From Ryuthela nishihirai (Eukaryota; Arthropoda; Arachnida; Araneae; Heptathelidae): a stretch of DNA of 64,000 nucleotides. The stretch lies in the NCBI GenBank assembly GCA_038380435.1, contig JAWZYU010000010.1, positions 47,650,135-47,714,134 on the forward strand, read 5' to 3'. Below are positions 9,219-64,000 of this stretch, one piece after another. Made by a program: the position numbers and the translations under genes. How positions within the stretch are numbered: position 1 is the first letter of the stretch; the number at the start of each line of letters is the position of its first letter. The notes below the pieces were generated by a model, which saw nothing but the letters and a program-made list of their open reading frames with translations, had not been told where the DNA came from and did no database searches.

Positions 9219-9599
9219 AAGTTGGTTTACCTCAGAGCAGCACTTTTTTTTGCACGCAATGGGCTAAATCCAGGTCACAAGGACCCCGAAGGCTCAGTGA
9301 AGGTTTCGGGGAGGGGAGCCACTGGAACAGCTGTTGGGAGACAGATGTTAGCCTCCCGTCAAGGCGATCCAACGTGTATTTTAACGTGCACAGGGTATGG
9401 CTCTGCCGCACACGGACCCACAGCTTAACGTCTCATCCGACGGACGGCGGCCTTTCCAAGCCCATCGGTGTCCCCTACTGACCGTGGACAGGGCGGGGAG
9501 TTTTGCGGAGATAAATCTCAACACTGACCCAGCTGGGACTGGAACCTGGGAAGTGCAGATTACGAGCCTGGCGCGCTACCGACTGAGCCACCCCCGACA
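9219..9599 (-). repeat. SINE-A, full length
   Basis: Complete reversed copy from a GGTTTACCTCAGAG tail to the tRNA head (CTGGGACTGGAACCTGGG B-box region, CTACCGACTGAGCCACC A-box region). The B box carries a change (TGGAACC for TCGAACC). The ~42-bp minisatellite starts shortly after the head end. Confidence 0.9.
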
Positions 9600-56037: not shown

Positions 56038-56412
56038 TGTTGTTGGGTTGTTTTACCTCTGAGCGGCACTTTTTTGCACACCATGGGCTAAATGGCCAGG
56101 TCACATGGACCCCGTAGGCTCAGAGAAGGTTGGGGGAGGGGACCCACTGGAACAGCTGTTTGGAGACAGATGGTAGCCTCCCGTCAAGGCCATCCAGCGT
56201 GTTCTTTAACGTGCACAGGGTATGGCTCTCCCGCACATGGGGCCACGGCTTAACGTCCCATCCGACGGACTGCTGCCTTTCCAAGCGCATCGGTCGTGGG
56301 CAGGGCAGGGAATTTTGCGGAGATAAATCTCAACGCTGACCCAGCTGGGACTCGAACCTGGGAACTACAGATTACGAGCCTGGCGCGCTACCGACTGAGC
56401 CACCCCCGCCCC
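56038..56412 (-). repeat. SINE-A, full length, young
   Basis: Reversed complete copy. ATCTTAAATG is perfect at 56028-56037 and 56413-56422. Central domain and head (GGGACTCGAACCTGGGAACT) match the copy at 20650-21037 closely. A ~20-bp deletion removes part of the CATCGGTGTCCCCTACTGAC segment. Confidence 0.96.
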
Positions 56413-57782: not shown

Positions 57783-58384
57783 TCCCTCGGTCCCAATTAA
57801 CTCTACATAGTATTAGATAGAGTTTTTGTCTCATGCAGAGAAGCTCATACAATTCAATTCCTCTAGAACTGTTAATTAATGCATCCACAGCTTTGCTGAT
57901 TTTAAGAAACAGGCACCAGAATAAATTTACATGGTTCTCTGTCTCTCTTAGGCGGTTCCCAATCTCAAGAAACATTCCTTATCAATAGAGATATGGAGAC
58001 GCATTTTCTACAAATATGGCTTCGATGAAAGGCATCGCCGATGACATACAGCTTCATCGAGAGTCATGAGAGCGCTTCGGAATTCGGCGTTGCGTCCGAC
58101 GTTGTCGGTGAACAATGACGTGCACATTCCTCGGACCATTATGTTCTTCTCCCTGGTCGGCTTTCTCCGAAATGGGAAAATCGTTTCTAGGCAATCATTT
58201 TCACCTTACGTCGGGTACAACGCCTGGAAATGACATTTTTAAGTGGAAATCAAAATTCTCATTTTTTTTTCAGACTTCGAAGAAAGATAAAGAAACATCC
58301 GAAAATTTCGATCGCCGCCGATGATTCACGTGACAAGGGACTTTTAAAATCAATTCACATAAGACGGATGAAAAATAAAATGAA
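57783..58384. other. Unannotated, partly GC-richer
   Basis: 58000-58330 has a higher GC content (CGTTGCGTCCGACGTTGTCG) but no recognisable protein. Confidence 0.4.
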
Positions 58385-59520
58385 TTGAAAACTTTAGCAA
58401 GGCTTGAGAAATGTTTAGAGTTTCAGAAACCTTTGGTTGCTAGCTTTGTTGATTTCAAAAAGGCTTTCGACTCTGTTGATCGTCATAATTTGTGGTTGAT
58501 TGTGAAATCATATGGTATATCAGACAAGTTAGTTAACATTATGAAAGCTCTCTATAATAACACTGAGTCGTGTGTGAGAGTTGGTAAGGCTTGTAGCAAT
58601 TGGTTTAGCATTACTTCTGGTGTTCGACAAGGGTGCATTTTGTCTCCTTTTCTCTTTAGCTTGGTTATTGATTATGTTAAGCAAAATTCACTTCAAGGGA
58701 AAGATTTTGGCCTTAAATGGACTGGAGATGCGAAAATTTCTGATTTAGATTATGCTGATGATTTAGCCCTTTTGGCAAATGATGTTGATGAGATGAACTC
58801 TTTCGTTCGAGCTGTTGATGAAACTGGTAGTAGAGTAGGTTTGGTTATAAACAGAGAGAAAACTAAAGTGATGAAAATTGGTCAGGCAGACTGTGATTCA
58901 GTTAATCTGAATGGTTGCAGTCTTGAGCAGGTGTCACAGTTTAATTATCTTGGGAGCTATGTAACAGATAATGGTGATGTGCGGCATGAGATTAACAGAC
59001 GAATAGGGATTGCTGCCGGGACTTTTAAGAACCTATGGAGAGTGTGGAGAAATAGGCGTATACACCTAAAGACTAAAATTAGACTGTATAATAGTTTGGT
59101 TCTTTCTAGGGTTAGTTATGGTAGTGAAACCTGGACACTTTGTAAACAAGATAACAGGAAACTAGATGCTTTTGATTCCAGATGCTTACGCAGTATCTTG
59201 GGCATTAGGTGGTTCAACTTTGTAACTAATAATGAGGTTAGGCAAAGGAGTTTACATCCTCCTTTAAGCAGCATATTGCGCAGAGAGAGACTCCGTTGGT
59301 TTGGCCATGTTGCCCGTATGAATAATTATAGATTGGCGAATAGGGTTATGAACAGTGTGCCTAAAGGCCTCAGAAAGAAGGGGAGACCTAGGATGCGGTG
59401 GGCAGACAATGTCAAACAGGACCTTGTTAGAATTGGTGTGCAGTGCCAGATGCAGTAGATGTAGCTCAGGATAGACTTGCTTGGAGAACTAAATTGCACG
59501 GTCTGGTTGGACCTCCGTAG
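58385..59520 (+). pseudogene. LINE reverse transcriptase, partial ORF with late frameshift
   Basis: 357 codons open. Reverse-transcriptase motifs in order: FVDFKKAFDSVDR (first catalytic Asp), SGVRQGCILSPFLFSL, DLDYADDLALLA (YADD box), INREKTKVM, FNYLGSYVTDNG. The C-terminal region has YGSETWTL, RLRWFGHVARM, RKKGRPRMRWADNVKQDL, which is typical of RTE-type LINEs. The frame stops at 59458, but the next frame continues with DAVDVAQDRLAWRTKL and ends at 59518-59520, showing a one-base shift near 59440. With the N-terminus missing the copy cannot be autonomous, although the catalytic motifs look intact. Confidence 0.92.
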
Positions 59521-59879: not shown

Positions 59880-60370
59880 TTACCTGTAGACTGATCAACT
59901 ACTCAAAAGTAGACTGATAAGGCTGATCAGATCATTATAAGGTATTAGTTGCTGATGTCATTTTCAAGGTATGTACCAATAGACTGTAAAGATTGGGTAA
60001 TGCACTTTTTTTCAGTAGACAATTTGGATATTTGCAATGTATTTACCAGTAGACTAGTTAGACTGATAAGATCAGCACTATGTATTTATTTACCAGTAGC
60101 CAGGTTGATAAAATCAGTACAAGTATTTACCAGTAGACTGGTAGGATCATTACAGTTATTTATCGGTAAATGGTAAAGCTGGTAGTATCATTACAAGGTA
60201 TTTATCAGTAAATGGTAAAGCTGGTAGTATCATTACAAGGTATTTATCAGTAAATGGTAAAGCTGGTAGTATCATTAAAAGGTATTTATTAGTAGCCAAT
60301 AGGTTGATAAAATCAGTACAAAATTATAGGTCGATAAAGCCAGTACAATTACCAGTAGACTGGTAAGAGT
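59880..60370. repeat. Minisatellite, 42-bp unit
   Basis: Two exact consecutive 42-bp units (GGTATTTATCAGTAAATGGT, AAAGCTGGTAGTATCATTAC) around 60199-60283, with diverged units (ACCAGTAGACTGGTA, GATCA) on both sides. Confidence 0.88.
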
Positions 60371-61475
60371 GTTTCAAGGGCCTCAAAAATATGGTGTTCC
60401 GAGAAATTAATTGGCACGACCTATATTGATTTTTGATGCACTACCGAGAGTTCGAATAATTGAATCGTTAATTTAAATAAATATTAGTTGTAATTCATCA
60501 GAATGCATTTTTTGGACATTTATTGAACTGGAAAAGTCGCAATTTCATTCACTTTTCTAAGAAATTCATTTTTTTTTTAGCAATTTCATTCACTTTTCTT
60601 AAGAATTTATACTCACAATTTTTTTTACTAACACTTATGTCTTAATATTCTCAAACGGCATCTACAGAAATTTCTCTATGATAAAAAATGTTTTCCGAAG
60701 TTTACCTTTCCCATGACAATTTTTCTGCAATTACACAATGAACACTAAAAGCTACTAATCAAATATCTTAATAATAGTGATGCACTGGTTTTTATGGAAA
60801 GAGCAGCCTTCAGCAAAGTTAACTCTCTTTTTTTGCACTTTTTTCCTTGTTAAGTTAATTACTCCGGTTTAATTATGGCGACATTATATTCCTCAGATAA
60901 CTACGCGAACTAATTTTAACCAATTTGAGACTCTAATTAAAGGTAGATCTTAACAAATTAGTCACAAATTATTAAGCAAAGCGAAAGCTACTTAGTATAT
61001 GTAATATAGACTGAAGAAGTGCAATCTCATTTTGAAATACACTGAGTTAACAGCAAAAGTAGATTAAGCAGAAAGTGAATTTTTCTTTTAAACCTTTTGT
61101 GATCATTATTTTACTTGGAGAATTATCATCATTAAATATACCACTTTCACAAGAATATAAGACGCCGTCGAATTTAAAAAAAACAAACTCTTTTTTATAC
61201 TCGGCGTTAAAAGAAAGAAATTGAATTCCAAAACGGATTCAAATTAAATAAAAAAATTTACTATCCTTAAAATAAAATATGGAGGAAATAAAATTGCACG
61301 CTAAAGAATTACACAGGAATTTAAAGATGCATTCCTAAATTTGGATATCAGATGCGGAACAAACCATGTGTCTTACATATTCACAAAAATATTGTTGCGG
61401 ATTACAAAAATGGATAGCCACTGAGCGTGAGTATTAAAAGCTATATTTCAAAACCAAATTCAATACAAGGTAAAT
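60371..61475. other. Unannotated AT-rich stretch
   Basis: A ~30-bp direct repeat (CAATTTCATTCACTTTTCT twice, 60539-60600). No gene recognised. Confidence 0.5.
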
Positions 61476-62033
61476 TGTTACAAAGGAAATATGGATGAAG
61501 TATCTTATTAACAAATTAACTATTAACATGCACAAGTCATCAATCTTCCTGCGTAGAGCACACAATATCAGCTCTGTGTATTTTACTAAATACTACCTTT
61601 TACTTGATTTACCAGGTCACCCGAAGATCTTCACTCGTAAACCAATTCTCGTCCTGTGCTAATAACTTTTCACACACTAGCCGAACAAAAAGACAGTCCG
61701 TGTAGACATTCGAAGTTAGCCATAAAAGTTCCCACTTTTATACTTCCGCGTATACACAACACATCAAGTTACTTCTTGATACTTAACGATAAAAGATCCC
61801 ACTTTTATCCTTCCGCGTATACACAACACATCAAGTTATTTCTTGATACTTACGCGCCTGTCTCAGAACAGCTCACCGTCCATTTTCGAACTCTTCGACC
61901 GTTACAACACAACGACCGTTACAATACAAAACGACCGTTAACGCTCCACTCTTCTTCTCCAAATTCTCCCAACGTTCTTATTCGTTGGCTGAAACTTTTT
62001 GCTTTCGGTTGCCAGATTCCTTCTGTCGTAACA
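61476..62033 (-). repeat. LTR (3') of a Ty3/gypsy retrotransposon
   Basis: On the minus strand it starts TGTTACGACAGAAGG right after the polypurine tract and ends CCTTTGTAACA, giving TGTTAC/GTAACA inverted ends and a length of 558 bp. It contains the end of the pol reading frame and a 75-bp tandem duplication (61723-61858). The matching 5' LTR would lie beyond the window. The end at 61476 is inferred from the inverted dinucleotide pattern. Confidence 0.72.
61723..61858. repeat. ~75-bp tandem duplication inside the LTR
   Basis: TCCCACTTTTATACTTCCGC / TCCCACTTTTATCCTTCCGC and GTATACACAACACATCAAGT occur twice, two units with few differences. Nearby ACGACCGTTA is also repeated (61911-61940). Confidence 0.88.
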
Positions 62034-62046
62034 CTGCCCCCTTCCT
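62034..62046 (-). other. Polypurine tract of the gypsy element
   Basis: Minus-strand AGGAAGGGGGCAG immediately before the LTR start TGTTAC; the expected primer site for plus-strand DNA synthesis. Confidence 0.78.
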
Positions 62047-62618
62047 AGGTCTTGTTCGTCCCGAACAATTCTGGATTCCAAAGTTTCTTCAGTTCTTCGA
62101 TGAAACGGAGCCAAACGATCCACGTGAACCACCTTGCACTTTGTAGCTGGACGTCAACGAATGCGATATACCACGTCATTAATCCTGTTAACTATTGTAT
62201 ATGGACCTTCCCAAGGTTTCTGAAGTTTTGGAGATAGTCCTTTCTTTCTATGTGGACTGTATAGCCAGACAAGATCTCCTTGATTGAAAATAGTTCCATT
62301 TATTTTACTGTCATATCTTGTTTTGGTTCTGTCACTTGTTATGTCGATGTTATGTCTAACGGAGTGATGGATTTCTTCTAGTCGTTGTTGCAATTCTTGT
62401 ACGTATTGTGGAGTGGACACAGGCATTGCTTCGGGCCGACCATATAAAAGGTCACAGGGAAGACGTAACTCTCTTCCAAAAATCATCATGGAAGGTGTCT
62501 GTCCAGTTGTCTCATGCACTGCCGTTCTATATGCCAGCAAAAGGAGTGGTACATGGCGATCCCAGTCACGTTGGTGGTCGTTCACAAATAATGCTAAATG
62601 CTGAGCAATTGTTCTTCT
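62034..62618 (-). pseudogene. Ty3/gypsy pol, C-terminal integrase end
   Basis: Minus-strand frame: RTIAQHLALFVNDHQRDWD, LLLLAYRTAVHETTGQTP, MIFGRELRLPCDLL (end of the integrase core and following region), then GDLVWLYSPHRKKG, LSPKLQKPWEGPYTIV (GPY/F-type C-terminal module) and VVHVDRLAPF. A TGA at about 62154-62156 interrupts the frame between YRIR and RPATKCKVV; otherwise the frame runs into the LTR. Gag, protease, RT, RNase H and most of integrase are absent upstream, where a foreign reading frame begins at about 62601-62618. Confidence 0.88.
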
Positions 62619-64000
62619 AACTCCTCGACGAGCTCTTGCAGTTCCAAGGATCCGTTACCAAGGAAACACTGAACAGCTTCCATCACTTCCAGAGAGTTGT
62701 CAACAGAGTTTTCAAGAGGTGAATCCATGTTGCTGATAACAGCTGAACAACTCAAACTCTTCATTCCACGAGCTTGTGATGCTGCAACCACTTTCTTAAC
62801 TAAATCAACAGCAACATCTTCTGTACTGATGAGATCAATAGCTCCTTTTCCGAATTCAACATCATAAACCAAAGCACACACTCCTTCAGCCAGCTTTTTG
62901 GACACAATTGAGCATCTCATTAGAGGAACGCTATCTACGGTAGCCGTCAGATCCTTGCAGCGGTAAATCTCCTTATCTGTTGGCACCAGCTCCTCTGTCT
63001 GTCCTACGATGCAGCATCCGACGTCTTCCATCATCTGCTCGATTTTATCTTTAGTGCAGTCGACTGTGAAGCCAGGGATGGATTCCAATTTGTACAGAGT
63101 ATCTCCCGTCAATTGGAGAGCACGACAGGAGATCATAGGGACCTTGAGACCTAAAGCAGCAAGTGCAGGAGCCAAGACAAGACTCACTTTGTCGCTGACA
63201 CCTCCTGTGCTGTGTTTATCTACCATCCGATGGCGCCACTCGGGTCTCCAGCAAAACACATGACCCGAGGAGGTCATAGTTGCTGTTTCTTCGGAATTCA
63301 CTTTCTTGGAGCTCTCATTGTAATTAGCCAGGGAAACATCAGTCATGATTGCCAAATTGTTCATTCTGGAGATCAGCGACGAGTTTTGTAACATGATATT
63401 GTCCACTTTAGAGCTCTTGTAGTCGTGATAAAACTTTTCTATATCCTTATAATCTAAATGGTTATAATGTCCAAATCTGCACATTGACTGTTCAGAAAAG
63501 AAATTCAGCGTGGCTACGTTGAAATTATCTGAGGGATTCACTTCTCTCTGATCGTAACTCTGAGGCTTAGTTTCATCCAGAAAGTTAGTCTTTGAAGTAC
63601 TGTCTCTGCCTGAAGCTCCTTTACTAGCATCACCTGTTACGCTTCTAAGCCATTCTTCGGAATTCTTCTTTCTTAAATCCCCACTTTCTATAAACGATTC
63701 GAGTGTGGCTATAAGTTTCGGAAAAATCTCTCCGACTTCTCCAGTAACGTCGAATGGCACTTTGTATCTATGATGAATGGACGCCTCTTCTTTACTCGGA
63801 CCACTCTGCGAAACGTAAACTCTGTTTCGTTCCCCCTCATTACCACTCGTTACTCTGCCTTTGCGATAATTTTCCATGACGCATTTTGCTGACGGCGAGG
63901 AATAGAATACCTTTCGTGTGGATCTCTCTTCAGATCGTGCCAGACTTGTATACCTAGGTATTTTGAAGTGCAAAGCGTACTGTATAGTCTCACAGCTCTC
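62594..64000 (-). CDS. Chimeric ORF: unknown N-terminal part plus thymidine phosphorylase-like part (5' end outside window)
   Basis: Open on the minus strand from the window edge to a TAG at 62594, at least 468 codons, so the true start is not visible. Residues are counted from a TTG codon at 63973. Residues 1 to about 230 are polar and unrecognised (KVPFDVTGEVGEIFPKL, SMCRFGHYNHLDYKDIEKFY). Residues about 231-455 match thymidine phosphorylase, which splits thymidine into thymine and deoxyribose-1-phosphate: WRHRMVDKHSTGGVSDKVS, LAPALAALGLKVPMIS, LTGDTLYKLESIPGF, CCIVGQTEELVPTD, LTATVDSVPLM, SIVSKKLAEG, NSLEV. The family's N-terminal ~100 and C-terminal ~150 residues are absent. Glycine-rich and His positions are altered (GVSD for GVGD; SCRALQLTGDT for SGRGLGHTGGT), arguing against enzyme activity. 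No intron interrupts the ~690-bp homologous stretch, suggesting a retrocopy. The ORF ends where gypsy integrase begins. Interpretation as a functional gene is doubtful. Confidence 0.72.
   Translation of the reverse strand, partial: ESCETIQYALHFKIPRYTSLARSEERSTRKVFYSSPSAKCVMENYRKGRVTSGNEGERNRVYVSQSGPSKEEASIHHRYKVPFDVTGEVGEIFPKLIATLESFIESGDLRKKNSEEWLRSVTGDASKGASGRDSTSKTNFLDETKPQSYDQREVNPSDNFNVATLNFFSEQSMCRFGHYNHLDYKDIEKFYHDYKSSKVDNIMLQNSSLISRMNNLAIMTDVSLANYNESSKKVNSEETATMTSSGHVFCWRPEWRHRMVDKHSTGGVSDKVSLVLAPALAALGLKVPMISCRALQLTGDTLYKLESIPGFTVDCTKDKIEQMMEDVGCCIVGQTEELVPTDKEIYRCKDLTATVDSVPLMRCSIVSKKLAEGVCALVYDVEFGKGAIDLISTEDVAVDLVKKVVAASQARGMKSLSCSAVISNMDSPLENSVDNSLEVMEAVQCFLGNGSLELQELVEELEEQLLSI

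Follow-up and report, generated by a model that had tools for sequence, protein, structure and literature searches.

An intronless fragment of a thymidine phosphorylase joined to a gypsy integrase remnant in the spider Ryuthela nishihirai, a possible LTR-mediated retrocopy

We describe a locus of the spider Ryuthela nishihirai in which an internal fragment of a chelicerate-type thymidine phosphorylase (TP) is joined, in the same orientation, to the C-terminal part of a gypsy integrase, which is followed by a polypurine tract (PPT) and an LTR. The joint between the TP fragment and the gypsy remnant is real. The fragment lacks the introns that the human gene TYMP carries in the matching span, and a further stretch of codons continues in frame upstream of it. 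The best reading of this arrangement, to which we would give about even chances, is an LTR-mediated retrocopy produced by template switching of a reverse transcriptase; the switch itself, an mRNA as the source of the TP sequence and a 5' LTR are what we infer for the locus. The window, that is, the whole stretch of DNA analysed, comprises 64,000 nucleotides, and the features of the locus, which lies at one end of it, are collected in Table 1.

Table 1. Features of the TP-gypsy locus (positions in the window)
Feature	Position	Strand	Basis
Ty3/gypsy-type 3' LTR, 558 bp, ends TGTTAC...GTAACA	61476..62033	-	inverted ends
Polypurine-tract-like AGGAAGGGGGCAG, directly before the LTR	62034..62046	-	sequence
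Gypsy integrase, C-terminal part with one in-frame TGA at 62154-62156	62034..62615	-	7q5b_A, PF24626, PF22938
Bases common to the TP profile and integrase alignments, candidate microhomology	62603..62615	-	profile alignments; TP tblastn ends short
Intronless internal fragment of chelicerate-type TP, conserved residues altered	62603..63298	-	human TP, Pfam, HMM of 120 TPs, tree
234 in-frame codons (residues 1-234), open at the window edge	63299..64000	-	ORF, protein searches, tblastn
NSUN2 pre-PUA domain, weak and unproven similarity (residues 7-47)	63860..63982	-	PF25376, E 0.0094, 16.8 bits, cut-off 24

The joint and the gypsy remnant

A minus-strand frame enters from beyond the window edge and runs through 468 codons without a stop (62594-64000). 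No other stop-free frame in the window is as long, the runner-up being the 359 codons of a non-LTR reverse transcriptase, and this single frame spans both the 234-codon upstream stretch and the TP piece. At its downstream side the TP alignment ends at 62603 with the HMM or at 62606 with human TP, and the integrase alignment starts at 62615, so that the two overlap by 13 or 10 bases, respectively. The sequence-only reading had the phosphorylase end exactly where the integrase begins, and the profile ends agree with this; however, nearly all tblastn alignments obtained with 120 TPs stop at 62648-62654, 33-39 bases before the integrase start, because the last residues ahead of the joint, which are TP-like by profile only, show little conservation. 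We therefore regard the shared bases as a candidate microhomology. Both partners lie on the minus strand, an agreement that chance alone would give half of the time. Neither a TP 3' end nor a poly(A) was present at the joint, the copy stopping in the middle of the gene at the integrase.

The match to the integrase of Ty3 Gag-Pol (7q5b_A) has an E value of 0.0012, and two models of the integrase C-terminus, PF24626 (1.4e-6, 28.7 bits, cut-off 30) and PF22938 (3.2e-5, 24.4 bits, cut-off 27), both score just below threshold. The integrase C-terminal region, the PPT and the TG...CA ends of the LTR are those of a Ty3/gypsy element, and the assignment to gypsy draws on several weaker signals in agreement, in contrast to the much stronger match of the TP. 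The catalytic triad of the integrase presumably lies upstream of the retained part and would be missing here. A search for integrase relatives in viral contigs gave five pattern matches, none of which was confirmed. That an LTR with a PPT follows the integrase, as had been read from the sequence, was borne out, the LTR boundaries having been placed by eye from the inverted ends of a single LTR copy. The LTR carries TATAAA at its position 292, and the minus-strand bases after it read ATTTA. A 67-bp tandem duplication within the LTR (61716-61849, 93% alike) spans the TATAAA.

The thymidine phosphorylase fragment and the open stretch upstream

Residues 238-465 of the ORF correspond to residues 91-313 of human TP (2j0f_A, E 6.6e-61), PF00591 matches within the 468-codon ORF (2e-27), and an HMM built from 120 TPs aligns residues 235-466. 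As judged by these alignments, the assignment to TP is well beyond chance, and both the human TP and the HMM alignments show a piece cut at both ends, that is, an internal fragment only. Of the interval 62594-64000 named in the sequence-only reading, the downstream part is TP-like and intronless; TP homology ends at about 63298, and the remaining half or so (63299-64000) is a different open stretch in the same frame. The 228 codons of the fragment are uninterrupted by any intron. Taking the human gene as reference, introns of TYMP follow c.417, c.516 and c.646, as read off the names of splice variants in a table of PMC12363080, so that the span of human codons 91-313 contains at least three introns. 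The idea of an intron that stops where TP begins found no support, as inspection by eye revealed no pyrimidine tract in the bases before 63298.

The 120 TPs are the ones listed out of 6054 proteins with E values of 10 or lower in a scored set of 7998. Identity of the fragment to its relatives ranges from 42 to 56% among the matches listed, with no close parental copy among them. At the sensitivity of tblastn, the remaining 61 kb of the window yielded no C-terminal half of TP, the best of 22 rows outside the locus having E 0.086 when 116 C-terminal halves from the 120 TPs served as queries. A FastTree phylogeny of the fragment and the 120 database TPs places it in a clade of nine members, itself counted, with support 0.91, whose named members are Limulus, Tachypleus, Stegodyphus and Parasteatoda; its position nearer the horseshoe crabs within this clade is unsupported (0.355). 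The tree by itself would make a chelicerate the probable source of the window. Its terminal branch, 0.56, is the longest of the tree, the next being 0.40.

The fragment departs from the family at 12 of the 74 columns with a conservation of 97% or more, including one (residue 238) where the alignment ends, whereas no other single TP has more than six of these columns changed. Eight of the 12 are invariant in all 120 relatives. The altered residues include two in HTGGTLDK (G to D and D to Y), the SGR glycine and an arginine before TATVD, positions that we take to belong to the active site. Because so many conserved columns are altered, the fragment is probably catalytically dead as far as its residues can tell, and it is truncated whatever its catalytic state. 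It contains neither stop nor frameshift. Simulated neutral evolution (n=1000), set to the amount of change seen in the fragment, gave a mean of 1.9 stops, with 15.5% of the runs free of stops and 0.3% free of both stops and frameshifts, the latter figure resting on an assumed indel rate. This absence of lesions is suggestive, not proof, of past coding constraint under the simulated model. The 468 open codons beside an integrase remnant that does contain a stop suggest either preservation of the coding part or residue changes older than the joint. Several of the altered conserved residues in 62603-63298 (G to D, E or S, R to K) fit G-to-A changes on the coding strand; an origin of these by hypermutation is speculation, as the ancestral codons are inferred from protein only.

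The 234 codons upstream are very likely coding or recently coding, since none of 5000 dinucleotide shuffles left the frame fully open across them. Codon-position GC is flatter in this stretch (0.42, 0.39, 0.43) than in the TP part (0.39, 0.45, 0.56). Several TP tblastn alignments drift through the stretch. Its reading as a diverged TP N-terminus was rejected: only six of 112 TPs (eight of the 120 being left out for lack of the motif or too short an N-terminus) align with it better than 95% of 300 shuffles do, with a median z of 0.36. Protein relatives at E 10 or better were found neither among 138 candidates of about 130-413 aa nor among 523 of about 257-819 aa, in searches that require shared exact five-residue words and that distant relatives may escape. 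NCBIfam gave no match in the stretch, and a PDB search gave four, mostly antibody chains, at E 0.15 or worse. No 5' LTR, gag or PBS was recognised in the 0.7 kb (702 bases) between the TP piece and the window edge.

Among Pfam models, which gave no gag family in the 234 codons, the sole match was the weak one to the NSUN2 pre-PUA domain. Its E value of 0.0094 with the stretch alone rises to 0.062 with the whole ORF, and its score stays below the curated cut-off. Human NSUN2 aligned with the 234 residues is equalled by 69 of 5000 shuffles, and with the first 80 residues, a range picked after the fact, by six of 5000; tblastn with the human NSUN2 piece returned no row at the stretch even at E 50. 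The likeness to NSUN2 is weak and unproven. Predicted structures were uninformative, with a mean pLDDT of 33.1 for the stretch alone and 38.5 for the whole ORF with nine sequences. A 22-base near-repeat between the TP start and the upstream stretch (gapped BLAST, E 0.13) was also discarded, the best ungapped 22-base repeat being matched by 275 of 300 shuffles, and a repeat search found no repeats at the settings used.

Origin of the locus

In an LTR-mediated retrocopy, the genomic RNA of the gypsy element would have been copied in a virus-like particle, the minus-strand cDNA of the 3' LTR and of the integrase end being made first. The reverse transcriptase would then have jumped, at short shared bases, onto a co-packaged TP-like mRNA and continued across its spliced coding region. 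Further 5' it would have copied the 234-codon stretch, which could be a novel N-terminus of the same TP-like mRNA, part of a second mRNA or unrecognised element sequence, and we assume that a switch back to the 5' end of the element beyond 64000 and an ordinary integrase-mediated insertion completed the process. Such a switch accounts for the common orientation, the mid-gene cut at the integrase and the possible shared bases, as well as for the lack of introns by comparison with human TYMP and for the failure to find a second half of TP in the other 61 kb, as would be expected of a partial copy. In its favour also count the truncation of the TP fragment at both ends and the retention of the 3' side of the element, which extends from the joint over the PPT to the LTR. 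Against it count the lack of a recognised 5' LTR, gag or PBS up to the window end, the early stop of the TP tblastn alignments ahead of the integrase, and the upstream codons, which have neither gag match nor relatives found. The long open frame next to a stop-bearing integrase remnant also counts against it. The chimera proposed in the sequence-only reading is partly supported, by the common orientation, the overlapping alignments, a TP fragment free of introns, the 3' LTR and the PPT. The claim that mRNA-derived sequence replaced the internal region of gypsy fits the TP fragment, but replacement by one mRNA is an incomplete picture, as the 234 codons upstream could be recognised neither as TP nor as gag. 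If true, template switching predicts a same-strand 5' LTR beyond 64000.

A less probable but serious competitor is that a diverged paralogue or retrogene of TP, its N-terminus novel, stood in place and was cut when a gypsy element inserted or was end-joined there, the 5' part of the element and the rest of the gene being deleted later, so that the joint would be a DNA-repair scar. The one 468-codon frame covering both N-part and TP speaks for it, as a long in-frame N-part is more simply explained in this way than by a template switch. The altered conserved columns, with the reservation on the one at the alignment edge, also favour it, and the rarity of stop-free and of undamaged sequences in the neutral simulations hints at a gene maintained for some time. 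Short shared bases occur at end-joining scars too. Nevertheless, two extra losses would be needed, those of the 5' part of gypsy and of the 3' half of TP, the latter not found in the other 61 kb, and a coding exon of at least 1.4 kb must still be intronless.

We hold it improbable that the assembly merged a contig of a TP-like gene with a gypsy remnant at a short shared sequence. The joint does carry short shared sequence only, and blastn showed no second copy of the LTR, the integrase piece or the TP piece in the window, matches elsewhere extending to 34 bases at most; however, 60000-64000 contains no N, and GC is 0.438 in both 1-kb segments 62001-63000 and 63001-64000, albeit by a coarse test. 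There is an equally small chance that a non-LTR element produced the TP fragment as an ordinary processed pseudogene and that the gypsy remnant is adjacent by coincidence. Non-LTR reverse transcriptase sequence lies nearby (58379-59458, PF00078) and interspersed repeats abound in the window, but a copy that lacks a TP 3' end and poly(A) and stops mid-gene at an integrase of its own orientation fits this origin poorly.

Known systems and other repeats in the window

LTR-mediated retrocopies are known from metazoans (Tan et al. 2016, Genome Res 26:1663, as cited in PMC5408686 and PMC9674220), and passages of the latter two papers already describe the template-switch mechanism. Like the metazoan cases described in those passages, the spider locus joins a partial intronless host sequence to an LTR element on the same strand, with candidate shared bases; unlike them, it displays one joint and one LTR and has an extra in-frame coding stretch 5' of the host fragment. 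Another parallel is provided by the retrocopies of PxyMasc (Pxyfem) in Plutella xylostella, in which an intron-lacking partial cDNA abuts coding sequence of an LTR retrotransposon and the bases ATTT are shared at the joint, a likeness to the candidate overlap found here; according to the relevant sections of PMC9674220, Pxyfem differs in that it is multicopy on the W and gives rise to silencing RNAs.

The maize element Bs1 carries fragments of three host genes (passages of PMC13317346 and PMC7264820). It resembles our locus in that a host enzyme fragment within an LTR element shares a hybrid reading frame with a second coding piece, but it is a plant element with identified fragments, whose chimeric gene is reported there to be transcribed and translated. 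It would be a long shot to see in the frame of 468 or more codons an animal counterpart of Bs1, that is, a new gypsy-built chimeric gene from at least two host mRNAs (TP and another piece, possibly NSUN2-like) kept open by selection.

Capture of gene fragments by LTR elements is described for Drosophila, mosquito, moth, zebrafish, chicken and plants in the sections of PMC5408686, PMC9674220, PMC13317346 and PMC7264820 that deal with it. LTR-mediated retrocopies and transduction of the Bs1 type are thus already known, and what is unusual here is the long hybrid frame. Our literature search found nothing on TP, spiders and retrotransposons together. If confirmed, the locus would add a chelicerate example to such captures, and the TP piece, which shares a single long reading frame with further coding sequence, could serve to test whether such captures give rise to new chimeric genes in animals.

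Rfam at the gathering threshold and tRNA scans found nothing in the window. An interspersed repeat of about 380 bp, 66-95% alike in the self-BLAST matches listed, occurs at 12 or more places, with starts at 9221, 14392, 14877, 20649, 32254, 41072, 42510, 43784, 46477, 48541, 51353 and 56042; it is perhaps a SINE, as one arm (56348-56400) appeared tRNA-related by eye. The 359-codon frame of the non-LTR reverse transcriptase matches PF00078 with E 1e-22 and is flanked by two repeat copies (56071 and 59624) that are 95% alike. Finally, the region 47486-48001 matches itself at an offset of about 124 bp with 82% identity and is probably a tandem array.
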